From Candidatus Peribacter sp. (GTDB taxonomy: Bacteria > Patescibacteriota > Gracilibacteria > Peribacterales > Peribacteraceae): DNA of 58,802 nt. Under the pieces are notes generated by a model. The model saw only the letters and a program-made list of their open reading frames with translations. It was not told the DNA's origin and searched no databases. The position numbers and the translations under genes are program-made. This document shows positions 10,201 to 49,793 of the stretch, in pieces. How positions within the stretch are numbered: the stretch's first letter is position 1; each line of letters starts with the position of its first letter. The DNA is taken from NCBI GenBank assembly GCA_018652955.1, contig JABIBA010000016.1:1-58802 (forward strand). Reading direction: 5' to 3'.

Positions 10201-10517
10201 TACGAGGCTTTGTTACAAGCGGTATTTCCACATCCACATCCACCACGTTTAGGCGCGTTTGGTTTTTGAGCGATGTTGCAACTACAACCACTTCCTTCGC
10301 ATGTCTTTGGTTCTTCGTTGGCAGCAGGCTTAGAGAGCTCTCGCATCATTTCCATGTGTTCTTCAGGTGTTTGCTTTCGCAATTCTTCTACAGAGATATC
10401 CATGTATTCAGCCATATTGATTTCACTTTGCGAGGCATCAGCAGGATGAGCTGTATCTGAGCCAGCTGTATGGCTGCACGCTGCGAGAAGTAGGGAGAGG
10501 AGGAGTAGACGTTTCAT
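10200..10517 (-). CDS. Cys-rich lipoprotein of the copper operon
   Basis: A 105-residue predicted lipoprotein (lipobox LLLAAC, Cys14). The middle is Met- and Glu-rich (EEHMEMMRELSK). The C-terminal third carries seven Cys in the pattern CEGSGCSC, then GGCGCGNTAC, typical of a metal-binding tail. No known family is recognised. It sits between the CuA-like cupredoxin and the multicopper oxidase, with an 11-base gap upstream and an overlapping TAATG downstream, so a copper chaperone or copper-buffering role at the cell surface is the best inference. Confidence 0.85.
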   Translation of the reverse strand: MKRLLLLSLLLAACSHTAGSDTAHPADASQSEINMAEYMDISVEELRKQTPEEHMEMMRELSKPAANEEPKTCEGSGCSCNIAQKPNAPKRGGCGCGNTACNKAS

Positions 10518-10528
10518 GAGATTAGGGG

Positions 10529-10936
10529 TTATTCAATAATAATAGTTCCTTGCATGTCACCGTGACCTGCGCCACATTGTACATTGCAGAAGAAATCAAA
10601 TGTACCAACTTTGTCTGTAGGAATCTTAACGAGTTTCATTTCACCCTGAGCCATGCTTTCTTTTATCCCAAGACCAGGAATTGCTACTCCATGGTTTCCT
10701 TGTATGCCCATAAGGTGAAGGGAAACATTTTCTCCTTTCTTGAGTCGAATGGTACTAGGCTCAAATTTCCAGTCACTGGTATGCAGCATAATTGTGCGCC
10801 CTTTTGTATCTTCTTGAATAGTGGGCGCATGGTTAGAAGGCGCGTTTGAGTTACTATTCAAAAATTTAGGACCAACAATTATTACAAGAGCAACAACTGC
10901 GAGGGCGGGTAGTGCTTGTTTAAGTTCAGAGTTCAT
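10529..10936 (-). CDS. Membrane-anchored CuA-type cupredoxin
   Basis: A 135-residue protein with one N-terminal membrane segment (about residues 9-26) and a single cupredoxin domain outside the membrane. Residues His82, Cys117, Cys121, His125 and Met128 reproduce the CuA binding pattern of cytochrome oxidase subunit II and nitrous oxide reductase (C-x3-C-x3-H-x2-M plus an upstream His). There is no oxidase subunit I or N2O reductase catalytic domain in the window, so it is a stand-alone electron carrier or copper-binding protein. It is the first gene of the operon with the Cys-rich lipoprotein and the multicopper oxidase. A TACACT -10 lies 24 bases before the ATG, followed by a short ACTACCCC-type direct repeat in the leader. 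Confidence 0.9.
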   Translation of the reverse strand: MNSELKQALPALAVVALVIIVGPKFLNSNSNAPSNHAPTIQEDTKGRTIMLHTSDWKFEPSTIRLKKGENVSLHLMGIQGNHGVAIPGLGIKESMAQGEMKLVKIPTDKVGTFDFFCNVQCGAGHGDMQGTIIIE

Positions 10937-27457: not shown

Positions 27458-27486
27458 TTGTCAAATAGAGCAAAATATAGTATAAT
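27458..27486 (+). promoter_or_regulatory. Promoter of the sortase-lgt operon
   Basis: TTGTCA (27458-27463), 17-base spacer, TATAAT (27481-27486). The -10 ends 7 bases before the GTG at 27494, predicting a leaderless transcript. This is the clearest example of the arrangement in the window. Confidence 0.8.
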
Positions 27487-27493
27487 AATAGTA

Positions 27494-28351
27494 GTGAACA
27501 AATATCAATTTCGTACGGTCCTAGTGGCCATATTGGCAATCGTTGCTTCTGTAGTTCTGTGGACTAGTGCTATTTCGTCAGTATCTCTTCCGCAAATTTC
27601 ACAAGAAGTGGTTACACAGTTTGACGATTACCTTCGTACATTCTTTAAAGCAGACTCACAGAAAAAAGAAGTAAGTGTTACAGAGGTAACAATAGAAGAT
27701 TTAGGGACGCACTTTGCGCGCAGCGTAGATCAGACACATGTGACAGCATCGGTCATAGAACATTCACAGAAGGTTACTGCAGAAGAAGCTACCGTCGAAG
27801 TTGTTGATGGTGATACAGGCGGTGATCTCGTCGAACCACCTGTTGTTATACACCCGTCTGCTTCGGAGCTTGATCAGTGGGATATATCCAGAGCGTGGAG
27901 TATCGCAATTCCAAGTCTTGGTATTCGTGCACCAGTGCTTCTGCCTTCAATGAAAAACTGGTCCTCAAGAGCATGGGATGTACTAGAAGAACAAATGCAA
28001 GTGGGCTTAAATCATGGAGCAGTAGCGTACCCACACTCTTCAGGTCCTGGTCGTAAAGGGAATCTCATTATTGCAGGTCATAGCAGTCCTCCAACAGAGA
28101 GCGCACGTAATAGTGAATTTGGAAGTCTATTTTCTCAACTTCCAAATATTGAAGTCGGAGAGGAGATTTCTATTGTGACAGCTGGTAGCCCTGTTACATA
28201 CCGTGTAGAAAAAAAGACAATTGTATCTCCGCAGACCACCTCGATCTTAGAGCAGCAGCAAGATGAAAGCATACTCAAGCTCATTACGTGCTACCCAGTA
28301 GGTACTACACGTGACAGAATGATTATTCTTGCAAAGAAGATAGAAGACTAA
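27494..28351 (+). CDS. Sortase
   Basis: A 285-residue transpeptidase with an N-terminal membrane anchor (about residues 9-28) and a linker of about 110 residues. The catalytic domain has the active-site His in IIAGHSSPP (about residue 195), Cys in LITCYPVGTTRDRM (about 265) and Arg a few residues later. The TCYPxGTT pattern places it near class D/E sortases. Sortases cut C-terminal sorting signals and attach proteins to the cell surface; the giant Cys-rich protein at 38836-46758 has a candidate signal. The start is taken as GTG 27494 because the -10 box lies inside the longer reading from 27458. Confidence 0.92.
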   Translation: MNKYQFRTVLVAILAIVASVVLWTSAISSVSLPQISQEVVTQFDDYLRTFFKADSQKKEVSVTEVTIEDLGTHFARSVDQTHVTASVIEHSQKVTAEEATVEVVDGDTGGDLVEPPVVIHPSASELDQWDISRAWSIAIPSLGIRAPVLLPSMKNWSSRAWDVLEEQMQVGLNHGAVAYPHSSGPGRKGNLIIAGHSSPPTESARNSEFGSLFSQLPNIEVGEEISIVTAGSPVTYRVEKKTIVSPQTTSILEQQQDESILKLITCYPVGTTRDRMIILAKKIED

Positions 28352-34460: not shown

Positions 34461-35231
34461 ATGAACAAATACTCACAACAATACTTCTTGGCTATCTGCA
34501 GCGTTATTCTGATGGTGCTTCTCGTGCCTTCACATTCTTTTGCTGCCGATAGCAGCTCGTTTAGACTATATGATGGCGTCTCTGATATTGCAGATTCTTC
34601 ACCGTTAGGGTCTACATCGTTTTCCCTAAATGAAGGTGGAGAGACTTGGGTTGCGTATCCTATAACCGGTAGCAACTTTCAAATTGTTACTGCTCCACCA
34701 GCAGCTGCGGAGTCTAGTAGCTCATCTAGTACGCAGTCGTCAGAAGAAGAAGCTTCAGATGACAGTGGAGGTGGATCTGGAGGAGGACACCGTGGAAGTA
34801 GAACGAATGAGGGAGGCTCACCAACGAAGCCATCTGCCCCACCCAAGCCAGCATTACCTGGTCAAATTTCAGATCAGCCAGATTCTACAATTGACGAGCC
34901 AGAGGCAGATATCCCACTTCCTGGTGCAGATCTCTCTGTTCCAGATGAGCCAGTCTTCACGACTCCTACAGAATCAATTTCAGATGTACGAAGAGAACGC
35001 AGAACAGTTCAACCACACTTCTTTGATATGACAGAAGAAGAAAAGCTTGTATGTGATTGCCCAGATACACACCCAGCACCGCCAAGGATTATCCCAGTAC
35101 CGACAGTCTTCCATGGCCCACTCCCATCTATGTTGATGCTGATGTTGGCATTTGGATTGGGGTATGTAAGCAGGCTCTACAGACCTGGACATGTACAAGT
35201 CTCTAAAAAGTCTCCTAAGAAAAAGCGATGA
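34461..35231 (+). CDS. Surface protein with Ser/Pro-rich linker and C-terminal membrane anchor
   Basis: A 256-residue protein: signal peptide (to about residue 29, SFAAD), a short beta-rich domain (SSSFRLYDGVSDIADSSP, GSTSFSLNEGGETWVAYP) of a type common at the start of CPR surface proteins, a low-complexity Ser/Gly/Pro linker (about residues 75-160), and a C-terminal membrane segment (LPSMLMLMLAFGLGYVS) with a basic tail (KKSPKKKR). It is therefore anchored with its N-terminal part outside. Function unknown. The stop overlaps the start of the next gene (ATGA), so they are translated together. Confidence 0.82.
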   Translation: MNKYSQQYFLAICSVILMVLLVPSHSFAADSSSFRLYDGVSDIADSSPLGSTSFSLNEGGETWVAYPITGSNFQIVTAPPAAAESSSSSSTQSSEEEASDDSGGGSGGGHRGSRTNEGGSPTKPSAPPKPALPGQISDQPDSTIDEPEADIPLPGADLSVPDEPVFTTPTESISDVRRERRTVQPHFFDMTEEEKLVCDCPDTHPAPPRIIPVPTVFHGPLPSMLMLMLAFGLGYVSRLYRPGHVQVSKKSPKKKR

Positions 35232-36784
35232 AAAATATAAGAATGATTACCGGCGCGTTCTTCCTTTTTGCAGGGCTGCTCAGCATTCCATTTGTCTCGG
35301 CAGAAACGACAGCTCCTCAGCGTGTCATCTACAACGGTCATTTACTAGATGCTTCAGGCGATGCGATAACAACGGAGCACAAGATCCGATTCAGCTACTG
35401 GACTAGTACAGACTATGTATCTGGAGACGTCACAGCTACTGGTGCCATTAATATCGGTGCTACGGAGTATGGTTCTTGGTACGAAGAGCACACAGTAACG
35501 CCAAATAGCGATGGATATTTCTCTGTAGAGCTTGGGAGTGTAACGGCACTTCCAGACTATTCAACGTTATCGGTAACGACGCTGCTTAATCTGCATTTAC
35601 AGGTTGAGGTAAAGCTCGCAACATCCGCAGATACAAGCTATGAACTCCTCGATAGAGATAGCTCAGATGACACAGTAGATCGCTCACCTGTACGCTCAGT
35701 CCCGTTCTCGCTCAATGCAAACTTGCTGGATCGACATGGGGTAGGTACAAGTAGTGGATCACTCAGCTTCCTTGGTAGCGGAGGTTACTTGCGTGAAGCG
35801 GGCACTCTTGCAAACCGCTTTACTATCGACGCAGATAACTCCAGTGGCGGAACGCTGTATTTGAGATTTGGAGCAAGTCTCGGAAAAGAATTGAGCTACG
35901 AACAAGACAACACGTACTTCAACTTTAACGACGATGTAAATATCGAAGGTAATATTACACTTTCAGGTCTTATTAATGGAGTAGATATCACAACGCTTGC
36001 AGCGGGATCTGACCAGGTTCACCTCAAGGTAAATAGTGGTGCAGGCCTCTCAGTTAACGTATCTGCAGGAGACTATCGTCTTAATGGAAATGTGACACAG
36101 TATGCAGGGGCAAGTAATCAATCCGTCACAGATGAAGCTACAAACTATGTCTTCCTCGGTTCTGGAGGTCTGACAATATATACGTCTGGCTTTCCTACCG
36201 GTGAATCCTTTATAAGGCTTGCAACGGTTGTGGCGACAGGAGGTGCTATCACTACTATTTCTGATAGAAGAGTATTCAATTCTGATGACCGAGAACGCAC
36301 TATTGTACGCACATATGCACCTTCTTATGAAGGGGCTGCCTATGAAGGAGATGGCTCAAATAACACGGGCCAGCTGTATGTAACAAATTCAGGTGCTGCG
36401 GTAACCAACCACTATGTCTGGACAAGTACCAGAACAAGCCTTCAGGACTACGATATTGTCATTCATGCAGAAATTCCTACAGATTTTGTTCGATGGGGGA
36501 CGACTCCTATTAGTCTCAATTACCGTACTACCTCAGGAAGCACGGTATACTCTCAGGCTGATATAGAAGTGTTTGATACAGCTGGTAACCAGGTAACACT
36601 ATCTGGAGATGCTTCAGACCTCTCTAATACTAGTTGGACTACAGCAGATATAGGATTTACCGGTTCTCCTACGTGGACGACAGGTAGTGGATTCCTTATT
36701 AAGATACGACCTTTCGCTAGTCATAGCCAAGAAGTCCAACTTGGACACGTCAAGATTAGACAGGTAGAGCTACAGAGCGAATAG
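35228..36784 (+). CDS. Fibre-like surface protein
   Basis: A 518-residue secreted protein with a signal peptide (cleavage near VSA-ET, residue 25). The N-terminal domain (APQRVIYNGHLLDASGDAIT...KIRFSYW) matches a domain frequent in CPR tail-fibre-like proteins. A central strand-rich region (YLRFGASLGKEL, INGVDITTLAAG, YRLNGNVTQYAG) resembles phage fibre shafts. The last ~150 residues form a beta-sandwich (YEGDGSNNTGQLY, WTSTRTSLQDYDIVIHAEIP, SNTSWTTADIGF) that is clearly homologous to the C-terminus of the next gene. No enzymatic motif. Likely a cell-surface adhesin or fibre subunit. Confidence 0.82.
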   Translation: MKNIRMITGAFFLFAGLLSIPFVSAETTAPQRVIYNGHLLDASGDAITTEHKIRFSYWTSTDYVSGDVTATGAINIGATEYGSWYEEHTVTPNSDGYFSVELGSVTALPDYSTLSVTTLLNLHLQVEVKLATSADTSYELLDRDSSDDTVDRSPVRSVPFSLNANLLDRHGVGTSSGSLSFLGSGGYLREAGTLANRFTIDADNSSGGTLYLRFGASLGKELSYEQDNTYFNFNDDVNIEGNITLSGLINGVDITTLAAGSDQVHLKVNSGAGLSVNVSAGDYRLNGNVTQYAGASNQSVTDEATNYVFLGSGGLTIYTSGFPTGESFIRLATVVATGGAITTISDRRVFNSDDRERTIVRTYAPSYEGAAYEGDGSNNTGQLYVTNSGAAVTNHYVWTSTRTSLQDYDIVIHAEIPTDFVRWGTTPISLNYRTTSGSTVYSQADIEVFDTAGNQVTLSGDASDLSNTSWTTADIGFTGSPTWTTGSGFLIKIRPFASHSQEVQLGHVKIRQVELQSE

Positions 36785-36904: not shown

Positions 36905-38752
36905 ATGCACATCCCTCTTACTATTAAGCGCCAACTACGCATGCAGTACCTGTTGAGAAACACAGCGGCAGCACTTTTGGTACTCATGGTACCGACGATT
37001 GCAGTAGCGAGTTCTTGGAGTCCGACTCTCCTTGTTAATACAGAAGCCTTCCAAACAATTGATGACGGAGATGGGTCTTCTAATATAGAACTTAGATTCG
37101 GAGCTACAGGAAGTGGTCTTATTTTGAACGTTACTGAGAATCAATTTGAGTTTGATACAGACTTAGAAGTTCAAGGAACTGCTTCTGGTAGAAAGCTTCA
37201 CGCACAAGACGATCTTACTTCTTCTGGAACATTAGTAGTAGAAGGTAAGGCGACATTCGGATCGAGTATCGTGCTAAACGGAGTGGAGTATATCTTCCCA
37301 TTTGGAGATGCATCTTCTACAGGTAAGATTCTTGCTTCTGATGGTGCAGGTAATCTTACATGGACATCTGCAGGGTCTACCCCAAATGTGTTCCAAACAC
37401 TTTCTGTATCAGGATCAGGGCAGAGTGACGTTGTGTCTGATGAGGCTTCGGATACGCTAACATTTGCAGAGGGAGCTAATGTAACCATTACCACAAACGC
37501 TGGAACAGATACGATTACTATTGCTGCTACAGATACGAATCAACAAACAACATTCACTCTCTCTGGTGATGGAGGAGGGTCAGACCAGACTATCTCTCAC
37601 GGAAATACATTGGAGATTGCTGGTGGTGACTCTATTACTACTACAGCTTCTGCAACCGATACTCTCACAGTAGACATTACCGATGATACGGTAGACTTTG
37701 CAGAACTTGCAGATTCTCTTACTGTAGATGCAGCTACTACAATCTCACTTGGTTCAAATAACTTTAACATCGATGCGACAAGCACTGGTGAATTTAGAGT
37801 AGAAGGAACAGCTTCTGGTACTCGTCTCCACGCAGATACAGCACTTACTTCATCTGGGACACTTGCTGTTGATGGTGCGATTACCTTTAGAAGTCTCACT
37901 TCTTGTACAAACCTTACAACAAACTCAGCAGGAGTCTTGGCTTGTAACAACACTGACTACATAGAAGAGAGTGAGTTGACCACTGAGGCGCATTTGGAAA
38001 CTCAGATTACAGATGTGACCAACTTTATTATCGAAGAGGAGATCAATACTGAGTCTGAACTAGAAGCTCTTCTAGGAGATGTTTCTAATGTACTGACAAA
38101 TAACGACTCTACAACAGATCTTACAGAAGGAACTAATCTCTACTTCACAGACGAACGAGTAGATGATCGTATAAACGCAGCATTTAGAGCTGGATCTGGT
38201 ATTACCTTTAACTATGACGATACTAATAACACGTTCACGGTAAACACAGGGTTCTCTAGTGGTGCTCAAGTAAGCCTCAGTCCTGAATACGCAGGTGCTG
38301 TGTATTACGGAGATGGTGCTAACAATGTAGGACAGATGGTACTTGCGTACGACTCTACTAACAAAGAGAACTACTACAAGTGGACTTCTACAGTATCTAC
38401 TCTTCAGGATTACAACATCGCTATTCGCGTAAAGGTGCCAGACGAATTTACACACTGGGATGGAACAGCACCGATTCAATTTAGGTACAGAACAAATGCA
38501 GCTTCTGCAGACGATAACCAAATGGATGTCACTATGCTGGATACTGCAGGAAGCTCTGTCTCTCTCACAGGAGGTACTAACTTTGCAAACACCTCATGGA
38601 CTACAGCGACTATTACCGGTCCAGAGGCTGCAGGAACATACACTCCAGGGAGTTACGTTACGATAATCATTGCTATGCAGGCGCGCACTACCAACTCCGG
38701 TGAGGCGCACGCTGGGTTCCTTAACCTTAACTGGTCGACGAAGAAGCGTTAG
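36905..38752 (+). CDS. Fibre-like repeat surface protein, chimeric
   Basis: A 615-residue secreted protein. After a signal peptide (to about residue 36, or 24 if it starts at the ATG at 36941), the N-terminal region (LLVNTEAFQTIDDG, SGLILNVTENQFEFDTDLEV) is nearly the same as that of the 979-residue protein, and EGTASGxxLHAxxxLTSSGTLxV repeats occur twice. Middle parts show phage-fibre patterns, including LTEGTNLYFTDERVDDRI. The final ~150 residues match the C-terminus of the preceding 518-residue protein (GDGANNVGQM, TSTVSTLQDYNIAIRVKVP). It thus combines modules of both neighbours. A terminator follows. Confidence 0.82.
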   Translation: MHIPLTIKRQLRMQYLLRNTAAALLVLMVPTIAVASSWSPTLLVNTEAFQTIDDGDGSSNIELRFGATGSGLILNVTENQFEFDTDLEVQGTASGRKLHAQDDLTSSGTLVVEGKATFGSSIVLNGVEYIFPFGDASSTGKILASDGAGNLTWTSAGSTPNVFQTLSVSGSGQSDVVSDEASDTLTFAEGANVTITTNAGTDTITIAATDTNQQTTFTLSGDGGGSDQTISHGNTLEIAGGDSITTTASATDTLTVDITDDTVDFAELADSLTVDAATTISLGSNNFNIDATSTGEFRVEGTASGTRLHADTALTSSGTLAVDGAITFRSLTSCTNLTTNSAGVLACNNTDYIEESELTTEAHLETQITDVTNFIIEEEINTESELEALLGDVSNVLTNNDSTTDLTEGTNLYFTDERVDDRINAAFRAGSGITFNYDDTNNTFTVNTGFSSGAQVSLSPEYAGAVYYGDGANNVGQMVLAYDSTNKENYYKWTSTVSTLQDYNIAIRVKVPDEFTHWDGTAPIQFRYRTNAASADDNQMDVTMLDTAGSSVSLTGGTNFANTSWTTATITGPEAAGTYTPGSYVTIIIAMQARTTNSGEAHAGFLNLNWSTKKR

Positions 38753-38835: not shown

Positions 38836-41800
38836 CTACTTTCTCCTCTTTCGGCGCATCCAACTAAGTCCAGCGGCTGCACCTCCTCCTATGACTGCAA
38901 CAGCAGCAGGACCGGTGTCTCCGACAGGAGCTTGTTGCTGGATGAGAGGTTGTAGTTGTGCCATTGGTAGCTGGTACGGGAGTTGCTGGAAGTTTGGATA
39001 CTGAGGGAAGTTAAATTGTTGCTGGTTTTGGAATTCAATGTCAGAAGGAGCTTGTTTAGTATTCTTAAAATCAATCTGCTGTTTATCTGAAGCAAGAAGA
39101 GTCTCCTCATTACAGTAGCGGTCACATCCATCTCCGTTAATCCTGTTATTGTCGTCACAGATTTCATTAAGATCAATGATGCCATCTCCGCAACGAGCAG
39201 CTCCACAGTCTGGCCTACAAGATGCAGCTGGAGACGTGGAATTCAGGATTCCATCATCACACTCTTCACCAGGATCAATTATGTTATCTCCACAGTGAGA
39301 AGAATTGAAGCGACAATTGATACAGGAGTAGGGGAGTGCAGTGTTATGAGAACTCTGCTCACACTGTTCATTTAGGAGAGATTGCACAATCCCATCTCCG
39401 CAAATACCAATCTCTAGAAGACAGGTGGAGCTGCAACCATCGTTGTCCCTCCTGTTTCTGTCGTCACATTCTTCGGGACTCGATAGAGTACCGTCACCAC
39501 AAACGGTAGACGCAGCGACTAGAATTTCAACTGGTGGATTATTGGCAATTTCGCCATCATCGTTGTCGCCATCTCCATCATCATCACTTTTCTCAAGCAA
39601 AATACATGTACAGATACTCAGGTCACATACACGACCAAATTCACAAGAAAGCGATACGGAGTCGCACTGCTCTCCTGCATCAAGCTTTCCATCTCCACAT
39701 GTAGCGACAAGTGGTGAAGTTGGATAACATGTACAGCTGTCGAGATCACATGCACGCCCTGTGCCACAGTAGTCGACGCCAAACTCACACTGTTCACCTG
39801 TTTCAATTTTCTTATTCCCACAAGAGGGGAGTTGATGTTGTAAATTACTGTCTCCTTCATCATCCTCATTTCCGATCATTCCATCGTCATTGGTATCTCT
39901 TCTGGGCCTACGCACTGATGATGAAGAACTGAATTTAATAGGGCCGACTCCTCCAGTGTTACCTGTATCAGGAGCATTTGCATCGCTGTCATCATCAGCT
40001 CCAATTGAAGCAATAGATAGCGTAAGACGTGACAGTGACGAAGAAGATGTTACTACTGGGGCATTAATACTAGATGTAGACTTCGCAACGATAATTCTAC
40101 TTGTAGAAGAAGAGCTATCAGCATCAGGCTTTTTCTTGCAATCTTTACCACAGGTAGTGTTTTTACCTTCATCGTAATCACAGACGTTGAGCTCTCGGCG
40201 GCAATCTGTGTTAGAGGTACATGTTTTTCCACTCGCTACACCTCCGCAGTGACCTGTATCTCCTCCTGCTAATTGAGCAAGAAGGCTTTTGCTAAATCGA
40301 GACAATAAGTTTCCTTGTAGATTTGTTTTATCGCATGGAGCATAGCGGTAAATGCCATTAGCTTGCTTGGTAGTACCATAGGCAACGTTGCGCTCAGGAT
40401 CCCATGTCATCGAAGGTCTGTCGGCACTTTGAACGGAGCTTTTTACAAGAATATCTCCTTCAGGATCGTACGAGTACACCATTCTAGGTGTATCGTGCGT
40501 TTGAGCTATGCCAAAAATAAGTGCCTTGTCGTTTTCTGTGTCCCAAACTGCACTAAGACTTCCGTAAGAGTTTATGTTTGCGAAGGTGTTCGTTGATGTT
40601 GAAATAGAATCATTCACCGGATCAAATTCATGTATATATATGCTACCAAAAATATATATCTTTCCAGTTTTGGGATTCCACGCACTGGCACCTTGACGTA
40701 CATTTTCTTTGAGCTTAGATCCCATAGTTCGAATACTTCTTCTTACAGGATCAAATTCTAGTATTTCTTTTCCAACCGTACTTGTCCTGCTATTTGGATC
40801 ATTCTGGTCAGGAATTCCACCGAAAATGTATACCTTTTTTCTCTCGGCATCCCAAACTGCAGTAGACCATACTCGTTTTGATGGAAGAGAGACGCCTATA
40901 TTAGTTCTTAGCACTCCAACATCTCCGACTTTGGGATCGTACTGGTAGATCCCACTGGAGGCTTCGTACTCATCAGAGTCACGATTTGCATAGCCTCCAA
41001 AGAAGTAAAAGTTATCCCCATTATCATCATAGATAGCAGCAGCCCCTCCTAGTGAATGGTGTTCTGGAATGACTAGAAGCTTGGATGCTGTATCTTGGGT
41101 GATAGGATCAAACGTATAGAGATGATGACGGCTATCTCCAGGCTGAGGAGCTTGAGGATGAGTAAGTGGCCCGAGGATCATGCGTTTGCGATGAGAGTCC
41201 CACACTGCAAAATCCCCACCCCATAGTGAAGTTCTTGGAAGGCTCATTTCAGCTATGGTTTCCCAAGATTCTGTACACTCTGATGCTAGTGGATCGGATC
41301 GATAACACTTCGGTGTGTAGCTCAGAATTTGATCGTTTCCTCCATCTTGTCTCGTTCCAAACATAAATACTTTCTTGTAAACTGGATCCCACACAACAGA
41401 ACCTTCTAGTCTCATCTTTCCGGAAGGATAGTCCACCTCTATTTTCTTATACTGCGAGTTCGAAAGAGAGATTTTAGAAATATACTCACCTTTCCAGTCA
41501 CTAAAGAAGTACACATTTTCTTCATCTTGATCCCATGCAGCATTCATTAAATTATTATCATTTTGAAATCCACTGAAGTATTGTGTTTTAGAAAATGAAC
41601 CTGACTCAGGATCAAAGGTTAAGCCACCACGAGCTCCAAATATATGAATGAGGCCGGTATTAGCATCTTGAATGACCGAATGTGCTACAGGATATTCTGG
41701 CATACCTTCGCGTGTTAATACTGTATCGATCCTCGGGTCATAGACTTTGTACTGCCCCCCGTCATCGCCTGCATTGTAGTTCTCTGCAAAAATGTACACC

Positions 41801-44800
41801 TTATCTGTAGGCTCATCATAAATTGCTGCTGGTCGTTTGTATTCTATAATTTCATCGTAGCCAAGTACCTCATTCCATCCTCTAGTACGAGGCCCCAAAG
41901 TACCTGAATTCTTACGTATCGTATCTGCAATTGGGTCGTACTCTAGTACTTCAGTATGAGAATAATATTCAGTCTCTGATGCGTAGTATCCACCTAATAT
42001 ATAAATCTTCTTGCGCTTGGAATCCCACACTGTCGACATTTCATAGTGTGAGCTTGGAAGCTTGGCAGACATCGTTCTCACTTTTCCACTTGCAGGATCA
42101 AATTCTAATATAGCTGTTGACCAAGCGCCTTGGGAGATATAGGCATTGGACCCCCCTCCAAACAGATAGATCTTGCCGGTATCTGGCACATAGATGGCAG
42201 AAGAGGTAGTGAGATCATAGGGCAAGCGTACAGGCTCTATAACTACTTTTCCTTCGACGCATTCGGTTGGTGGAGAAGGTAGCAGATCTTCTTCTTGCTT
42301 ACGTTGTCCACAATCATCTGGGCAATACACATACCCCTCACAAAATTCTCCGTCACATCCAACTGCACCTTCGTTTTGACTGCAGACTCCATCTCCACAT
42401 GAAGAAGCAGATTTCTGTAAGTTATCATTACTATCTGCAACACAAATAGTCATATCTCTACACTCTGCATCTACCACACAAGTAGCTCCATCAATAGTAC
42501 ACTTAGATCCATTGTCACATTCTTCATCTTCATTAGTGACACCATCACCACATATGTCTCCAGTTATTGTCGAAGCAGAAGATGAAGAACTTATGCCTAC
42601 ATCATCTTTGCCGCACTTGGATTCACAGAGATCTTTTGATGAATAGGCAGGTCCAGCAGTAGGTGTGTCACATGACTGTGGCAGTTTTACACATGAGCCT
42701 TCACAGCATCCGTATCCTAAATCTTCTGATGCAGCAGAATGAGTAGATGATGAGGAGCTACTTTTGCCTGGTCCTCCCTGAGGGCAGTTTGGTACTGGTA
42801 GTTGTGGGCAGGTGTCTTCGTTGTCTGGAGGACAGTCGAGTGGGCAGCTAATGCTCGATTCACTAGAGTCACAGACGTAGTTATAGTTACAAGTTTCTTG
42901 GTGACAGTAACATGCACACAGATCTGGACCATTCGCCTGGCATCCAAAGTTACAGTGCACGCTGTACTTGCTTCCGTTGCACTGTGCTTCGCAGCTTATT
43001 TCGAATGCAGGTATCTCATTTCGCGGGATTGATACAGCGTTAGAAGCAGAAGGATCCACAGGGTAATTTGCTGCACAAGCACATTGTGTTTCCCATGCAT
43101 AAAATGGACAGCATTCATCAGTTGTTGGTACTTGGCCATTGTTACAAACTGCACTACATGCAGTAACAAGGGCTGGCATTTGTGCCGGGCTGGTATCTTG
43201 CCCTTCTTGGCATAAACTTGGAGCACTTGGATTGTAATTATCTCTTTGGGGTGGTGATACACAGGTACACGTATCAAAGTTACATCGTTGACCACCGCTA
43301 CAACTTTCATCTCTGTAGCATTCATCGTTGTTGATACTGCATTTGTTACGACACGCACAAGAGTCAGCGTCGCAGTACGCAGCTTCTCCACAGACTTCAC
43401 CAACTCCAGGTTCACATTGCTCTCCGAAAGAGAAGACTCCATCTCCACAGGTATTTGACGGAGCACACCAGCAATTGCTTGAGCATTCATATCCTGATGG
43501 ACAATCTTGCATTTCAAATGTTTCACCGTTGTCACTGTACACTTGGCAATCACAGGCTGAGCAACTTTGAGTCCGCACACCTTCTGTACTTTCTAAATTA
43601 CAATATTCATCGCATCCATCTCCGTTGTCATTATTTCCATCATCACACTGTTCTTGTCCTCTTTCGTATATTCCATTTCCACAGGTATCAAGATAGTTAG
43701 AGCATGTGTCACCACATCTAGCAGGACCGCTTTCGATATAGAATTCTCCTAGACAGGTGTCTTCTGTTGCATCGTCATACACTGGTTGGCAACTTGTTTT
43801 GTTTACAGATCCATCGGGCTGCGTTCTTCCATCCGGTAGGCAGCAGTGCCTGTATTCTGGTTCACAGTCTTCGCTACATCCGTCTCCACTATCAGTATTT
43901 CCATCATCACAGCTTTCGTCATATCCCTGTACGAAACCATCACCACAAACAGATTCTGGAACACCACAGTCTTCCATGCACTCTAGATATCCAGGATCAG
44001 GCTCGACAGAGCATACTTCATATGGTGCATCTGAGTCGTACGTTGGTCCATTGCAGTAGAGGTCTGGGAAGAAGCCTTCTGCGTAACAACCTTGTATTTC
44101 TTCATCTTCTCCGTCTGGATCCCAGCGATTTGGAATTGTTCCTTGATAACAACATATTTTCTCTTCGGTGATGCAATCTGCACTGCATCCATCGCCACTA
44201 TCAGTATTTCCATCATCGCACCACTCGTCATAGAGTGAATCTACATTTCCATCTCCACAGGTAGGAAGTGTGCAATCTGTATGACATGAATTTCTATCGT
44301 CTGCATTTTGAGAGCCATTATCACATTCTTCACCTACTTCAATAGTTCCATTTCCACAGTTGGTATTGATTTCCTGACAATCGTCGCCACATAGTGAATC
44401 ACTTGTGTCATAGACACAAGAGTTTGTTTGCCACTGGCAGTCAGAATCTGATGTACAAGAATAGCCTCCGTCTGCTCCTCCGCAAATACCTACAGGTCCT
44501 AGCGGATCAGTGCCAGTGTTAGAATTTGAATTTCCTGTGTTGTTACTATTCCCACCAGAGCAATTAGCAGCACCAGCTTCTACTGGCGTATTCACAGAAT
44601 TACTACAGTTTTGTGTTCCTTTGTGACAGAGCCGCATTGCAGTGCCAGCGGCAGGGTAGTAGCAACGTTGTCCTGTTCCAAAGCCGAATGAAATGTGGCT
44701 TCCTGCATTATGTGATCCTGCTTCTGTTCCTAGGAATGTAGACCACACTCCGTTTTCTTGCATCTCTAAAGTGATTGCTGTTCGCGATGGTGACGAGAAG

Positions 44801-46758
44801 GAATACTCAACAGTCAGCGTACCCTGATCTGCATGACTTAAGGAGTGTAGTGTAATTTGACCAAGTGCCACTTGGCCCAAGAGACTATTACCCGATGGTA
44901 GGTAGGCATTTGTATCTGGGAAGATACATGTTGATATGTCTGTGCAATCTGCATCATCTAAGCATGATGACCCATCGAATTCACAGACAGAGCCAGTGTC
45001 ACATTGTTCTCCTGTATCAACGACTCCATCTCCACAGATTGATTGATTGCAGTAATTATTACATTCCAGCTCTGCATCTGTGTAATCTACCTCTGCAAAT
45101 ATTCCACCCTGTGTACATCCATCCCCTGCATTTATATAGGTACAACTGTTGCCACTTCCAACTTGATCACAACAGTACGCATTACAATCATCATAAAGAT
45201 CACCTGTCCTTGCTATAGGAATTCCAACAAATGCTAAGAATTTATGGAATGGTGAATACGCAGTTTGTGGATTACACGGACTCACTTCAATTTTACAATC
45301 AAGACTACAGCCATCTTCATCTTCAATATTCCCATCATCACACTCCTCATCATCATCAACAATCCCATCTCCGCATGCTTTTAGCGTGCAGTCGGTTCTA
45401 CATACTCCGTTTGGGTTATCAGAGTTGTCGTCCGCTAGATCACACTCTTCTCCGCTATTGGACTGGATAGTGCCATCTCCACATACTTCATCTTTGCAGG
45501 TGCTATTACAGCCATCATTGTTTGTAGTATTTCCATCATCACACTCTTCTCCTGAATCAACAGTCCCATTTCCACATCCTTCTAATAAACAGGTGGAGTC
45601 ACACCCATCACCATCAGACTCATTTCCATCATCACACTCTTCTCCGTTATTGGACTGGATAGTGCCATCTCCACATACTTCATCTTTGCACTTGCTATTA
45701 CATCCATCATTGTTATCAGTATTCCCATCATCACATTGTTCAGTTCCTTCAGTTAATCCATTTCCACATCCTTCTAGCATACACGATGAGCTACATCCAT
45801 CTCCATCGCTTACATTCCCATCATCACATTCTTCTCCTGACTTTGTATTTTTATATCCATCTCCACACTCAACGTAGGTACAGTTAGCATCACAGGAAGC
45901 TGTTTCTCCACTATCATCACACTCTTCGCTTCCTTCGACATTTCCATCTCCACATACAGGTGTGCTAGGACCACCAGAGCTTTGGCATGTACCAAAATCA
46001 TAAGCCTCCATACCATCCTCGTCAGCGCAAAACAGTCCTGCTCCACATCCAAATGAATCGTGGGATGTATTTCCGCTCGTAGCATGTATCCAGCCTCTAT
46101 TAGCATCTAATATAGAACAAGGATGATCGTTGCAGGCATCTCCTAAAATTCCTTCTACTCTCAATCCATCACCGGGGCAAGGTGGATCCAATAACATACA
46201 AATTCTGGGGGATGAAAACTGGTCATTGTCTGGACCTGGATTTTCATACTCACACATGATGGCAAGCTGATCTCCCCAACAATCAATTAGTCCAGAATCA
46301 GAAGTATCACCATTTACATTGCAACTATACCCACAAGATTCACCTACATCTGCAACGCGAGAGCCTCCGGGGCAATCGGGATTTGTAAGGCATAACGGCA
46401 CCTCGTATGTATAACTATCGCAGTACATGCCTTCTCTACAATCCCAAAAGTCAAAGCCTGAGGTACAAATATTATTTGGATCATCATCCCTACTGTCACT
46501 ATGACAAAAGTATTGACCAGCCCCATACCCTAAACACATACCATTACCACATAGTAAGGCTGAATCACCCTCAGAGCAGTCTACTCTCCCTGCAGGATCC
46601 ATATCTCCTGAAGAGTTTCCAACATTGCTATCAGAGTCGTTACCAAATGCTCCTCGTAGACTAGTTGTTTGATTGCTCATACTTAACATGAGTGCTGAAA
46701 CAATGAGAACATTGAATGCCACAACTCGTAATTTGGCCGGTGTTACAGAAAAACCCAT
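38836..46758 (-). CDS. Giant Cys-rich repeat / Kelch surface protein with C-terminal sorting-like tail
   Basis: A 2640-residue secreted protein. A signal-anchor-like N-terminus (about residues 10-30) is followed by about 21 Cys-rich repeats of the DUF4215/Myxococcus type (CGDGxxxxGEECDDGNxxxxDGC...C): about seven between residues 265 and 490, others to about 1480, and six between about 2330 and 2550. Residues about 1500-2145 are free of this motif and contain Kelch-type repeats (GKIYLFGGGSNAYISQG, KKIYILGGYYAS, KKVYIFGGIPDQN), probably a beta-propeller. Ser-rich linkers are scattered through it. It ends GDTGPAAVAVIGGG, a small hydrophobic stretch and RRKRRK, resembling a sortase or exosortase sorting signal. 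The many disulphides imply oxidative folding outside the cell. Likely an adhesin or stalk for host contact. Confidence 0.92.
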   Translation of the reverse strand: MGFSVTPAKLRVVAFNVLIVSALMLSMSNQTTSLRGAFGNDSDSNVGNSSGDMDPAGRVDCSEGDSALLCGNGMCLGYGAGQYFCHSDSRDDDPNNICTSGFDFWDCREGMYCDSYTYEVPLCLTNPDCPGGSRVADVGESCGYSCNVNGDTSDSGLIDCWGDQLAIMCEYENPGPDNDQFSSPRICMLLDPPCPGDGLRVEGILGDACNDHPCSILDANRGWIHATSGNTSHDSFGCGAGLFCADEDGMEAYDFGTCQSSGGPSTPVCGDGNVEGSEECDDSGETASCDANCTYVECGDGYKNTKSGEECDDGNVSDGDGCSSSCMLEGCGNGLTEGTEQCDDGNTDNNDGCNSKCKDEVCGDGTIQSNNGEECDDGNESDGDGCDSTCLLEGCGNGTVDSGEECDDGNTTNNDGCNSTCKDEVCGDGTIQSNSGEECDLADDNSDNPNGVCRTDCTLKACGDGIVDDDEECDDGNIEDEDGCSLDCKIEVSPCNPQTAYSPFHKFLAFVGIPIARTGDLYDDCNAYCCDQVGSGNSCTYINAGDGCTQGGIFAEVDYTDAELECNNYCNQSICGDGVVDTGEQCDTGSVCEFDGSSCLDDADCTDISTCIFPDTNAYLPSGNSLLGQVALGQITLHSLSHADQGTLTVEYSFSSPSRTAITLEMQENGVWSTFLGTEAGSHNAGSHISFGFGTGQRCYYPAAGTAMRLCHKGTQNCSNSVNTPVEAGAANCSGGNSNNTGNSNSNTGTDPLGPVGICGGADGGYSCTSDSDCQWQTNSCVYDTSDSLCGDDCQEINTNCGNGTIEVGEECDNGSQNADDRNSCHTDCTLPTCGDGNVDSLYDEWCDDGNTDSGDGCSADCITEEKICCYQGTIPNRWDPDGEDEEIQGCYAEGFFPDLYCNGPTYDSDAPYEVCSVEPDPGYLECMEDCGVPESVCGDGFVQGYDESCDDGNTDSGDGCSEDCEPEYRHCCLPDGRTQPDGSVNKTSCQPVYDDATEDTCLGEFYIESGPARCGDTCSNYLDTCGNGIYERGQEQCDDGNNDNGDGCDEYCNLESTEGVRTQSCSACDCQVYSDNGETFEMQDCPSGYECSSNCWCAPSNTCGDGVFSFGEQCEPGVGEVCGEAAYCDADSCACRNKCSINNDECYRDESCSGGQRCNFDTCTCVSPPQRDNYNPSAPSLCQEGQDTSPAQMPALVTACSAVCNNGQVPTTDECCPFYAWETQCACAANYPVDPSASNAVSIPRNEIPAFEISCEAQCNGSKYSVHCNFGCQANGPDLCACYCHQETCNYNYVCDSSESSISCPLDCPPDNEDTCPQLPVPNCPQGGPGKSSSSSSTHSAASEDLGYGCCEGSCVKLPQSCDTPTAGPAYSSKDLCESKCGKDDVGISSSSSASTITGDICGDGVTNEDEECDNGSKCTIDGATCVVDAECRDMTICVADSNDNLQKSASSCGDGVCSQNEGAVGCDGEFCEGYVYCPDDCGQRKQEEDLLPSPPTECVEGKVVIEPVRLPYDLTTSSAIYVPDTGKIYLFGGGSNAYISQGAWSTAILEFDPASGKVRTMSAKLPSSHYEMSTVWDSKRKKIYILGGYYASETEYYSHTEVLEYDPIADTIRKNSGTLGPRTRGWNEVLGYDEIIEYKRPAAIYDEPTDKVYIFAENYNAGDDGGQYKVYDPRIDTVLTREGMPEYPVAHSVIQDANTGLIHIFGARGGLTFDPESGSFSKTQYFSGFQNDNNLMNAAWDQDEENVYFFSDWKGEYISKISLSNSQYKKIEVDYPSGKMRLEGSVVWDPVYKKVFMFGTRQDGGNDQILSYTPKCYRSDPLASECTESWETIAEMSLPRTSLWGGDFAVWDSHRKRMILGPLTHPQAPQPGDSRHHLYTFDPITQDTASKLLVIPEHHSLGGAAAIYDDNGDNFYFFGGYANRDSDEYEASSGIYQYDPKVGDVGVLRTNIGVSLPSKRVWSTAVWDAERKKVYIFGGIPDQNDPNSRTSTVGKEILEFDPVRRSIRTMGSKLKENVRQGASAWNPKTGKIYIFGSIYIHEFDPVNDSISTSTNTFANINSYGSLSAVWDTENDKALIFGIAQTHDTPRMVYSYDPEGDILVKSSVQSADRPSMTWDPERNVAYGTTKQANGIYRYAPCDKTNLQGNLLSRFSKSLLAQLAGGDTGHCGGVASGKTCTSNTDCRRELNVCDYDEGKNTTCGKDCKKKPDADSSSSTSRIIVAKSTSSINAPVVTSSSSLSRLTLSIASIGADDDSDANAPDTGNTGGVGPIKFSSSSSVRRPRRDTNDDGMIGNEDDEGDSNLQHQLPSCGNKKIETGEQCEFGVDYCGTGRACDLDSCTCYPTSPLVATCGDGKLDAGEQCDSVSLSCEFGRVCDLSICTCILLEKSDDDGDGDNDDGEIANNPPVEILVAASTVCGDGTLSSPEECDDRNRRDNDGCSSTCLLEIGICGDGIVQSLLNEQCEQSSHNTALPYSCINCRFNSSHCGDNIIDPGEECDDGILNSTSPAASCRPDCGAARCGDGIIDLNEICDDNNRINGDGCDRYCNEETLLASDKQQIDFKNTKQAPSDIEFQNQQQFNFPQYPNFQQLPYQLPMAQLQPLIQQQAPVGDTGPAAVAVIGGGAAAGLSWMRRKRRK

Positions 46759-46853: not shown

Positions 46854-49793
46854 CTACTCTAGTGCCAGTAAGCAATTAACAGTTCCAGTAGAATTTCCAC
46901 TATGTGATGCCATTGCAATACAGATAGCATCGCTACCATTATTCACCTGCCCCCCAACACCATCTGGAGCAGAGTTATTGAATCCAATACGATCTCCAAT
47001 ATTTACAGTACCTTGAACTTTAACGGGGATCTGACCAATGATTCCAATAAGCGCTTTTGATTCTCCTGTATTTGCTTCCAGGCCATTATTTCCAATAAAA
47101 CCAGGATTTGTAGATACTGCACCTATCATACGGAGTTGCGAGCTGCTACATCGTTTAACGTAACCAGGTCTCTCGGTATCGAGACAGACAATATCTCCAT
47201 CCGTCATACCATTATCTGCAGATGGGAACCATTCAGCGAAGTCAGCACCTGCACCACTGTAAGCATTATCAGAGAAGGTTGCACCATTTGCCTGAATACG
47301 AAAAGCAACATCATTAGTACTTGCTACATCTGAAACAATTTTAAAGATGTCCTGTGTACCTGTTGACTCTGCAGTGTGAATCACAAGCGCTTCATTGTTA
47401 AATGCATTATCAGTATATATGTTAAATTTAGCAGTTAAGCTGCTTCCAGTACCAACTCCCACATTTGCATTAGGTGCTACAAAGAATGCAGGCTCCGTAT
47501 CACCTGCCTGTGAAAATACTTTAAACCTCCAGTCTTGTGTAGGGGAAATGCTGTACGCAGTTGGTGCAGTAGTCAGATTTCCTCCTCCTCCACTAAATCG
47601 AATCCAGTAGTTACTTGTAAACTCTGCATCAATCGTTGTAGTAGACCAGTCTCCTCCAGGGTTAAACATCACGGTTCCATCTTGAGATAAGTTACTAGTA
47701 TTGTCTTCAATAGTAACCGATGACCACCCTGATCCGTTGTAGTATTCAGCAGCCAGCGTTATACCTGCTCCCGCAACTGCTATATCAAAATAGGTAATAT
47801 AGAACTTGTCTGCAAGTCCAACGTAGATGTAGTCGTTCGTTGGATTTTCTACAGAAAACAGTGTGAATGCTGTTCCAATAGATGTTCTTGCCTCTGTTGT
47901 ATTGTCGCTATACGAAGGAGTTCCATCATCGTAGTACACGACATCAAATCCAGGAGGATCTACTGCAAGTGAGCCACTTGTTGTAAGTGAGTTATACGCA
48001 TTGCGGAAGATGTTGGTATCGAACATATTGTCATATCCAAATAGAATATGAGGATTATCCGAGGCACTCTTTGTCGGCATACTAATTCGTATCCCTGGTT
48101 CTGATGTAGCTTCACTATCTATGTCTAGAGCTATACCGTCACCATCAGTATCTGCAAACAGAGTTGTTGCTGCACCGTCCTGCTGGAGATGCATTACCGT
48201 TGTGCTGTCTGCACTAGCATTGTCATTCTCAAGATGGAACAAGCTTCGCTTAGAAGTGTCGCTAGAATTTGATATTCCTGTAAAGATCAGTCCTGTACCA
48301 GTTGTAAGAGAATCTGCATCACCAACGTCGATAACTTTACCAGTTGTAAGTGTATCTGCCTGAATATTTATGACATCAACAGTTGTCGCTTCGGTGTCGA
48401 TATCGATACCAATGCCGTTTCCATCTTGGTCAACAACTACAGCTGTAGAAGTATCGGTGTTGTTTACATCTAATTTTCCATCTGGACTTGGATCTCCAAT
48501 GCCCACTCGTTCATTTGTCGTATCAACATTGAAGATTGTTGTACCTCCATCTGTGTCGTTAACTTGAAAGAATGTTGTCGAGTCTGTAGCACTTTTGAAT
48601 CTTGTTTGACCCTCTACAGATAGTGTTCCAGAAGACGTTAAACTATCTGTCGCATGCACTCTTGCACCAGATGCTGTTTCTCCTACCCAAAGATCATCAT
48701 CGGTATAGAGCGTATCTGCTTTTTGCCTAAATAGATTCGTATCAAATATATCGTTATGCCCAAAGAGGATATGTGGATTCACGATTTCTCCACTTGTATT
48801 TTTTGTTGTCGCCTCTATATCAATAATCATTGCAGCATGAAGTGTCGACTCACTATCAATGAGCTGACCAGATCCATTTGCATTTTGATCGAGGAAGAAT
48901 GATGCAGGGGAGAATAGGTCATTGGCCTCTAGAATCATTTGTCCAGAACCAGTGAGCAGGCGACCAAAGTGCAGATGCTCACCAGAGCTTGTACCTACAA
49001 CTTCTAGCGCAAGACCCGTATCAATACTGTTGCTTTCATTTCCTGTACCTACATCGATAAGAAGTCCTCCTGTCATGGTATCTCCCTCTACATGCACGTA
49101 ACGATTATCAAAGAATTCTTGAAGGGAACCTGTACCGGAGAAGCTACTTCCTCCTCCTCCACCTCCAGCTGCAGCAATAGTTACAGTGTCTGCTCCTGCA
49201 TCTGTGGTGATAGTAATATTGCTTCCTTCTACGAATGTGAGTGTATCTGTCGTGCCATCTGCTACTACATTACTTTGTCCAGAGACAGCGATTGTTTCAA
49301 ATAGATTTTGATCGGCGTCTCCCGTATCTGTATCTGTTCCACAGCTAAATCGCTGTGTTGTTGCATCCCAGAGAAGCTTACTTGTAGAAGCGGTATCACA
49401 ATCTTCAAGACCAGACCCTGCAAATCCATCGGCTACATAGAGAGATGCACCAGAGGCAGCTCCTTCAAATACCAATGTTCCAGAAGATGTGAGTCTGTCT
49501 TGAGCATGAATGGTACGCCCAGATGCAGTACCTTGAATCTCTAGGTTAGTATCAAACTCAAATTGGTTTGCAGTGATATTTAGAATCAAGCCACTTCCAG
49601 TATTACCAAATCTCAGCTCATAGTTTGAGGAAGTATCTGTTCCATCAATCTGTTGAAAAGCTTCTGTATTTACAATAAGTGTTGGACCCCAACTACTACT
49701 GGCATACACCGAGCTAGTATTAGCTATTACCAGGATCGAAATCGTGAGGATTCCAAGGATTCTGATAGCCGGTTTTTGTTTATTTAGAGACAT
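46854..49793 (-). CDS. 979-residue fibre-like surface protein with autoprocessing-like C-terminus
   Basis: A secreted protein with a signal peptide (cleavage near VYA-SS, about residue 31). The N-terminal region is shared with the 615-residue plus-strand protein. Several EGxxSGxxxHAxDxLTSSGTLxVEG units occur (about residues 87-113, 240-262, 380-400), and central parts have repeated DxDGxGIxxDIDSEAT-type segments. The last ~130 residues (GADFAEWFPSADNGMTDGDI, MIGAVSTNPGFIGNN, IGQIPVKVQGTVNIGDRI) match the C-terminal chaperone/peptidase G2-like domain of phage fibres, which trimerises the fibre and may cut itself off. It lies 95 bases upstream of the giant Cys-rich gene and may be co-expressed with it. 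Confidence 0.85.
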   Translation of the reverse strand: MSLNKQKPAIRILGILTISILVIANTSSVYASSSWGPTLIVNTEAFQQIDGTDTSSNYELRFGNTGSGLILNITANQFEFDTNLEIQGTASGRTIHAQDRLTSSGTLVFEGAASGASLYVADGFAGSGLEDCDTASTSKLLWDATTQRFSCGTDTDTGDADQNLFETIAVSGQSNVVADGTTDTLTFVEGSNITITTDAGADTVTIAAAGGGGGGSSFSGTGSLQEFFDNRYVHVEGDTMTGGLLIDVGTGNESNSIDTGLALEVVGTSSGEHLHFGRLLTGSGQMILEANDLFSPASFFLDQNANGSGQLIDSESTLHAAMIIDIEATTKNTSGEIVNPHILFGHNDIFDTNLFRQKADTLYTDDDLWVGETASGARVHATDSLTSSGTLSVEGQTRFKSATDSTTFFQVNDTDGGTTIFNVDTTNERVGIGDPSPDGKLDVNNTDTSTAVVVDQDGNGIGIDIDTEATTVDVINIQADTLTTGKVIDVGDADSLTTGTGLIFTGISNSSDTSKRSLFHLENDNASADSTTVMHLQQDGAATTLFADTDGDGIALDIDSEATSEPGIRISMPTKSASDNPHILFGYDNMFDTNIFRNAYNSLTTSGSLAVDPPGFDVVYYDDGTPSYSDNTTEARTSIGTAFTLFSVENPTNDYIYVGLADKFYITYFDIAVAGAGITLAAEYYNGSGWSSVTIEDNTSNLSQDGTVMFNPGGDWSTTTIDAEFTSNYWIRFSGGGGNLTTAPTAYSISPTQDWRFKVFSQAGDTEPAFFVAPNANVGVGTGSSLTAKFNIYTDNAFNNEALVIHTAESTGTQDIFKIVSDVASTNDVAFRIQANGATFSDNAYSGAGADFAEWFPSADNGMTDGDIVCLDTERPGYVKRCSSSQLRMIGAVSTNPGFIGNNGLEANTGESKALIGIIGQIPVKVQGTVNIGDRIGFNNSAPDGVGGQVNNGSDAICIAMASHSGNSTGTVNCLLALE

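Follow-up and report, generated by a model that had tools for sequence, protein, structure and literature searches.

A proposed C-terminal sorting signal on cysteine-rich surface proteins of Peribacteraceae, one of which carries a probable Kelch double propeller

Large cysteine-rich proteins have been proposed to serve in attachment in Candidatus Peribacter riflensis, in which a sortase A was also noted and peptidoglycan synthesis was reported; the excerpts of that account considered here describe no shared C-terminal sorting signal, Kelch architecture or sortase pairing for these proteins (PeerJ 4:e1607, PMC4736985). We analyzed a 58,802-nucleotide stretch of DNA (hereafter the window) from Candidatus Peribacter sp., a tiny uncultured member of the Peribacteraceae, focusing on P0001, a gene for a modular Cys-rich surface protein. 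We propose, at a probability of about 0.7, that P0001 is an exported, disulphide-stabilised protein attached by a sortase to the Peribacteraceae cell wall. To the published Peribacter account, the analysis adds a proposed sorting code, its family-wide distribution, and a difference between protein heads at a fixed locus. Our literature search found no paper linking Peribacteria to a sorting signal, and the papers containing the letters GDTGP, the core of this signal in P0001, appear unrelated by title and abstract.

Wall-anchored LPXTG proteins of Gram-positive bacteria (TIGR01167) resemble P0001 in having a C-terminal X-T-G site, a hydrophobic span, a basic tail, and a sortase in the genome; their N-terminal signal has a probable counterpart in P0001. 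Unlike theirs, the Peribacteraceae tail reads [V/I/A]-G-X-T-G-P, with a nearly fixed proline after TG, a longer conserved segment upstream, and no LP. The DUF4215 or myxo_disulf_rpt proteins have the same family of repeats, to which P0001 adds a probable Kelch double propeller and a sortase-type tail. Known Kelch propellers (Keap1, KLHL20, NS1-BP, YjhT) are like the modeled part of P0001 in their six-bladed fold, with Z about 24, but identity is 12-17%, and P0001 probably carries two propellers in tandem within an exported Cys-rich protein. Class E sortase signals (LAXTG) also have a residue other than proline at the second position of the pentapeptide; compared with these and other LPXTG variants, position 2 is glycine here, and the sortases of the organism itself score below every NCBIfam class cut-off.

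A shared C-terminal tail in Peribacteraceae

The gene and the parts of its tail lie as follows.

38836..46758, minus strand: gene P0001, modular Cys-rich surface protein; a single uninterrupted open reading frame of 2,640 aa
38836..39018, minus strand: sorting-signal module, FPQYPNFQQLPYQLPMAQLQPL...RRKRRK; 123.7 bits to the tail profile (alignment A1)
38908..38922, minus strand: GDTGP core (V-G-D-T-G-P), proposed sortase recognition site; TGP conserved among relatives' tails
38839..38907, minus strand: 17-residue hydrophobic span and RRKRRK, from the sequence; conserved over 62 tails

An earlier note on this DNA had described a 2640-residue protein ending in GDTGP, a small hydrophobic stretch, and RRKRRK. 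Exactly one intact minus-strand frame occupies 38836-46758, and its C-terminus reads GDTGP, then AAVAVIGGGAAAGLSWM, then RRKRRK, just as described. The note also held that the lack of any other protein with this tail would refute its interpretation. Scanning the organism's own genome (G000; 1.20 Mb in 17 contigs) for GAYACNGGNCCN returned 22 DTGP matches, compared with 1 for a reversed control pattern, and 12 distinct genes among these matches share the C-terminal module. The tail profile recovered 14 copies, the two beyond the 12 reading GETGP, so the tail is far from unique to P0001; the count of tail proteins rests on these DNA-pattern and profile searches. Synonymous codons differ among the copies, and so do the heads of the proteins, with a LamG domain in one and only repeats recognised in others.

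To gauge conservation, we made a motif-anchored count over 62 tails, which gave P at position -4 in 50 tails, G at -2 in 56, G again at +11 and +15, W at +18 in 58, and R at +20 in all 62. Because that search required TG, the invariance of T and G is partly by construction, and core conservation was therefore re-measured on profile hits for which the motif was not required. TGP was kept in 54 of 55 distinct relatives' tails, the exception reading GDVGP, and the residue before T was D in 41, Q in 6, K in 4, and E, N or R in 1 each. The general form of the tail is thus [V/I/A]GXTGP followed by a 17-residue hydrophobic span and RR(K/R)n, which places an X-T-G site, a hydrophobic span, and a basic tail at the very C-terminus. 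Given that TGP is near-fixed, that the preceding residue varies, and that hydrophobic and basic segments follow, the anatomy, as read from sequence, is that of an LPXTG-type signal. Taken in isolation, the P0001 tail scored 16.9 bits with the NCBIfam LPXTG_anchor model (TIGR01167), above its cut-off of 15.9; the full-length protein was not among the model's hits (see below). The tail is really shared and is probably a C-terminal sorting signal.

In a first sample of 44 genomes from the same family, the tail profile matched 36; it matched none of 198 genomes from the rest of the class. A larger family sample gave 45 of 56 genomes, and in a 380-genome sample of the phylum the matches fell in family members only. 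Across 84,980 named genomes, a tail scan found 37 loci, most of them labelled Peribacteria or Peregrinibacteria; the remainder came from three metagenome-assembled genomes, one labelled as a bacterium, one as belonging to the Patescibacteria group, and one as Kiritimatiellales, which may be a binning error. Tail-negative family genomes still carry Cys-rich repeats, and the repeat proteins that were read in several of these genomes have neither a hydrophobic span nor a basic tail at their ends, which argues that the tail is a separable anchor.

Three side observations follow. In a relative with a 1.4 Mb genome, a tail profile match (G027:C1:135433-135573) ends a 7,015-residue open frame. On contig 8 of G000, a LamG-domain surface protein that bears the tail (L029:8649-12797; a similar gene lies at L102:4576-8751) also matches the C-terminal part of FlhB/YscU at residues 1218-1299 (Bac_export_2, 60.9 bits, profile positions 250-331). 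The C-terminal domain of FlhB/YscU normally lies on the cytoplasmic side of flagellar export. Finally, a 256-aa Cys-free protein on contig 12 (L033) ends in LAPTGAGSILAASLMLGAVFYTIRKAGKSEAQI, possibly a second, LAXTG-like sorting signal.

Disulphide repeats, Kelch block and the role of the head

Upstream of the tail, the protein is built from the following parts.

46651..46758, minus strand: N-terminus (residues 1-36), first basic and then hydrophobic, a probable signal peptide; read by eye
42259..45954, minus strand: residues 269-1500, N-terminal CGDG...ECDDGN disulphide repeats with unique spacers; TIGR02232 and PF13948 matches
40321..42207, minus strand: residues 1518-2146, a run of about 12 Kelch-like units that probably form two six-bladed beta-propellers in tandem; Pfam Kelch models, unit test, AlphaFold2 (AF2) and Foldseek
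40294..41253, minus strand: residues 1836-2155, second propeller as modeled; AF2 from a single sequence, Foldseek, structural alignment
39109..39822, minus strand: residues 2313-2550, C-terminal disulphide repeats, common to most tail proteins of the genome

P0001 contains 196 cysteines. About 21 CGDG...GEECDDGN repeats had been noted on either side of the Kelch region, and we counted 22 starts of CG[DN]x repeats from residue 70 to residue 2523. Their scores with TIGR02232 (myxo_disulf_rpt; 279.8 bits against a cut-off of 20.8, E 2.9e-85, 12 separately significant stretches) and the Pfam model DUF4215 (109.5 bits against a cut-off of 27) put the repeats far outside what chance would give. Of 11 other tail proteins compared with residues 2313-2550, 10 are 39-69% identical and the eleventh 31%. 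Among the loci compared, relatives were found for the repeats and for the last 330 residues, and most of the N-terminal segments and spacers matched nothing else. The disulphide-forming enzyme VKOR was looked for in the organism's own genome and not found; DsbA-type enzymes were not searched for.

Residues 1501-2100 hold only 2 cysteines and match attractin/LZTR1 propeller models and Kelch models above Pfam cut-offs; in the Kelch block PF24981 scored 66.2 (cut-off 50), PF24681 51.6 (cut-off 50), and Kelch_6 32.8 (cut-off 25.3). We recognised about 12 units of the form AxWDxxxxKVYIFGG...EYDP. When each unit was scored with a hidden Markov model built without it, 11 of the 12 exceeded all 300 of their own shuffles (unit 7 marginally), and unit 12 did not. 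With about 12 units, most of them beating their shuffles, two six-bladed propellers are suggested. The earlier note had seen a single Kelch-like propeller of about 640 residues here; its Kelch character and propeller-like nature stood, and its number did not.

Structure prediction pointed in the same direction. Modeled whole with AF2 without homologues, the Kelch block reached a mean predicted local distance difference test score (pLDDT) of 49, and its best Foldseek matches were mostly double-propeller proteins. The second half alone (residues 1836-2155) gave a model with 24 strands, a predicted TM-score of 0.68, and a pLDDT of 60, which matched a human Kelch domain in Foldseek (E 4e-10) and aligned with the Keap1 Kelch domain 9qdu_A at Z 24.0 on the DALI scale (root mean square deviation 2.6, 253 residues aligned). 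The second half is thus predicted to have a propeller fold, and the refuting outcome foreseen in the note, a predicted structure in which residues 1500-2145 are not a propeller, did not come true. For the first half (about 1500-1835), units 1-6 beat their shuffles, but the whole-block model has a pLDDT of only 49; this half probably folds alike, and the likeliest arrangement is two tandem six-bladed propellers. Against PDB sequences the Kelch block found only a weak match (E 0.064). In the other 55 family genomes it had no full-length match, and a partial match (39%) in G137 only.

How the head would be used is less certain. P0001 may have an adhesive or host-contact role: the Cys-rich repeats would form a protease-resistant rod presenting the tandem Kelch double-propeller head, which would bind a partner surface, glycan, or protein. 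A doubtful alternative is that P0001 is anchored as we propose but acts as a structural coat or an enzyme, its repeats serving as protective armour and its propellers being galactose-oxidase-like, sialate-epimerase-like, or nutrient-binding. A weak Pfam NANM match (34 bits, below the cut-off of 45) and structural similarity to YjhT (2uvk, Z 23.8) speak for an enzyme; however, no catalytic residue set was demonstrated, and because Kelch propellers of all functions score alike, the fold says little on function.

Sortases and the proposed route of anchoring

The organism's own genome encodes three sortases, of which one is in the window and the others are on contigs 4 and 10.

27458..28351, plus strand: window sortase, 297 aa, with an N-terminal hydrophobic segment and catalytic LITC..R; a neighbor of the tail gene at the level of the genus; PF04203, 7e-23

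All three pass the Pfam Sortase model and none reaches an NCBIfam class cut-off; for the window sortase, the best listed class score was 54.4 (class C) against 160, and the general sortase model was passed (51.5 against 39.35). Of the 56 family genomes, 55 have a sortase. The types on contigs 4 and 10 appear to be nearly universal in this sample, and the window type (E below 1e-40) occurs in 20 of 56 genomes. TLMTC..R active-site motifs are conserved in the sortase type that was read. The contig-10 enzyme (L038:4305-5612) has SLH-like repeats fused at its N-terminus, a type and length that recur in nearly all sampled family genomes. Of 20 sequences of the family-wide sortase that were read (L037 and L121-L140), 18 have -LPI at the C-terminus and the other two LAI and LPM. 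The idea that this C-terminus (STGPAPAALPI in G000) mimics the substrate was rejected, as TGP is not kept in most relatives.

In our model, the N-terminal signal would direct P0001 through Sec, and the 17-residue hydrophobic span and RRKRRK would stall translocation as in the LPXTG paradigm. A sortase would then cut [V/I/A]-G-X-T-G-P between T and G and link the threonine to peptidoglycan or another envelope acceptor. A Mur ligase gene lies nearby in the window. Several observations weigh against this model. Its site is V-G-D-T-G-P, with G in place of P, rather than a literal LPXTG pentapeptide, and the LPXTG_anchor model returned no hit to full-length P0001 at E <= 0.1. Sortases are universal also in tail-negative relatives and across the class, so their co-occurrence with tails cannot prove pairing. 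Outside the genus, tail genes and sortases showed no consistent gene linkage. As for the presented head, the full Kelch model is of low confidence, and the half modeled alone is the second only.

The simplest competing route would do without a sortase: the tail could be an uncleaved C-terminal membrane anchor with its basic residues inside, since a hydrophobic span and basic tail suffice for stop-transfer. We consider this unlikely, because such an anchor needs no fixed T-G-P upstream, yet TGP is near-fixed behind a variable residue, and because the tail is common as a unit to proteins whose heads are otherwise different.

If a sortase is involved, the enzyme need not be the neighboring one. 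The earlier note was right that a sortase is encoded about 10 kb away (10.5 kb by our coordinates), but proximity failed as evidence of pairing, given orthologues in only 20 of 56 genomes. That the window sortase is the dedicated enzyme for tail proteins is quite unlikely. Tails occur in 19 of the 20 genomes carrying the window type, and G093, a congener, preserves the order of genes between the sortase and the tail gene; against this, the window type is lacking in 26 of 45 tail-bearing genomes, including the few-contig G046 and G137 with 4-8 tail proteins, and G254 keeps the sortase locus with no tail gene found there. Among tail-negative genomes the window type is lacking in 10 of 11 (Fisher p 0.076). 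As sole partner, the neighboring sortase was rejected on this presence/absence table, and the 26 tail genomes without it make a family-wide sortase the likelier partner: most likely, the enzyme is one of the two family-wide sortases rather than specifically the window sortase. Where genomes have few contigs, tail clusters and sortase genes are found far apart.

Processing by an exosortase in PEP-CTERM or MYXO-CTERM style, hinted at by sub-threshold scores of two paralogue tails (15.4 bits for PEP_CTERM, 12.9 for MYXO-CTERM), is highly improbable and was rejected for the organism's own genome, which has no match to Exosortase_EpsH (PF09721); nor do 43 of 45 tail genomes have one; exosortase-like genes are, if anything, commoner in tail-negative family genomes (3 of 11, against 2 of 45 tail-bearing; Fisher p 0.047, uncorrected for kinship). 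The tail-negative carriers are G062, G109, and G258, where a swap of anchoring systems is possible.

The locus in congeners and what it may mean

The window, G093, and G254 are collinear over tsaD, the sortase, a membrane protein, lgt, rnhB, a mur ligase, ribF, an SLH protein, two small exported proteins, and P0003. Beyond P0003 lies P0001 in the window and, in G093, a frame of 376 codons that runs on the same strand and encodes 27 cysteines; in G254, no tail gene follows P0003 at the locus, a region with masked stretches. The ends of the G093 frame align to P0001 residues 1-347 (29%) and 2489-2640 (54%), its N-terminus resembling residues 1-36, and its tail is intact. Net, the two proteins differ by about 2,260 residues, which include the whole Kelch block. 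The unusual mid-protein Kelch insert that had been pointed out is therefore real, and the syntenic orthologue in this sister species does without it. A gain in P0001 is favored over a loss in G093, because no other sampled family genome has a full-length match to the Kelch block. In this one syntenic pair, the anchor and last repeats are constant and the head differs; this would fit a protein whose head varies between species on a constant base.

Other exported proteins surround P0001. The genes at 36905-38752 and 46854-49793 flank it and encode paralogous exported proteins with the N-terminal domain SSW.PTL.VNTEAFQ in common, the larger (46854-49793) with a C-terminal Peptidase_G2 match. The genes at 35228-36784 and 36905-38752 share a C-terminal domain of about 150 residues. 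Elsewhere, at 8713-10936, three adjacent exported genes appear by eye to encode a multicopper-oxidase-type protein, a small Cys-rich lipoprotein, and a cupredoxin-like protein.

How members of the Candidate Phyla Radiation (CPR)/Patescibacteria hold on to other cells is an open question; in the literature searched the Cys-rich proteins of Peribacter have no defined anchoring route. On balance, we lean toward the view that Peribacteraceae have a lineage-specific wall sorting code of the form [V/I/A]-G-X-T-G-P, which unclassified sortases of their own recognise, and that it displays a set of proteins armoured by disulphides, 14 of them in a genome of 1.2 Mb, with heads that differ between congeners by swaps or several-fold expansions at fixed loci, giving an ultra-small, probably symbiotic bacterium a modular contact surface. 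A sorting code this short and searchable would directly list, for every Peribacteraceae genome, the candidates for display on the wall and allows a cheap biochemical test with sortase and peptide, and the size difference at a fixed locus marks where variation of the putative contact surface concentrates.
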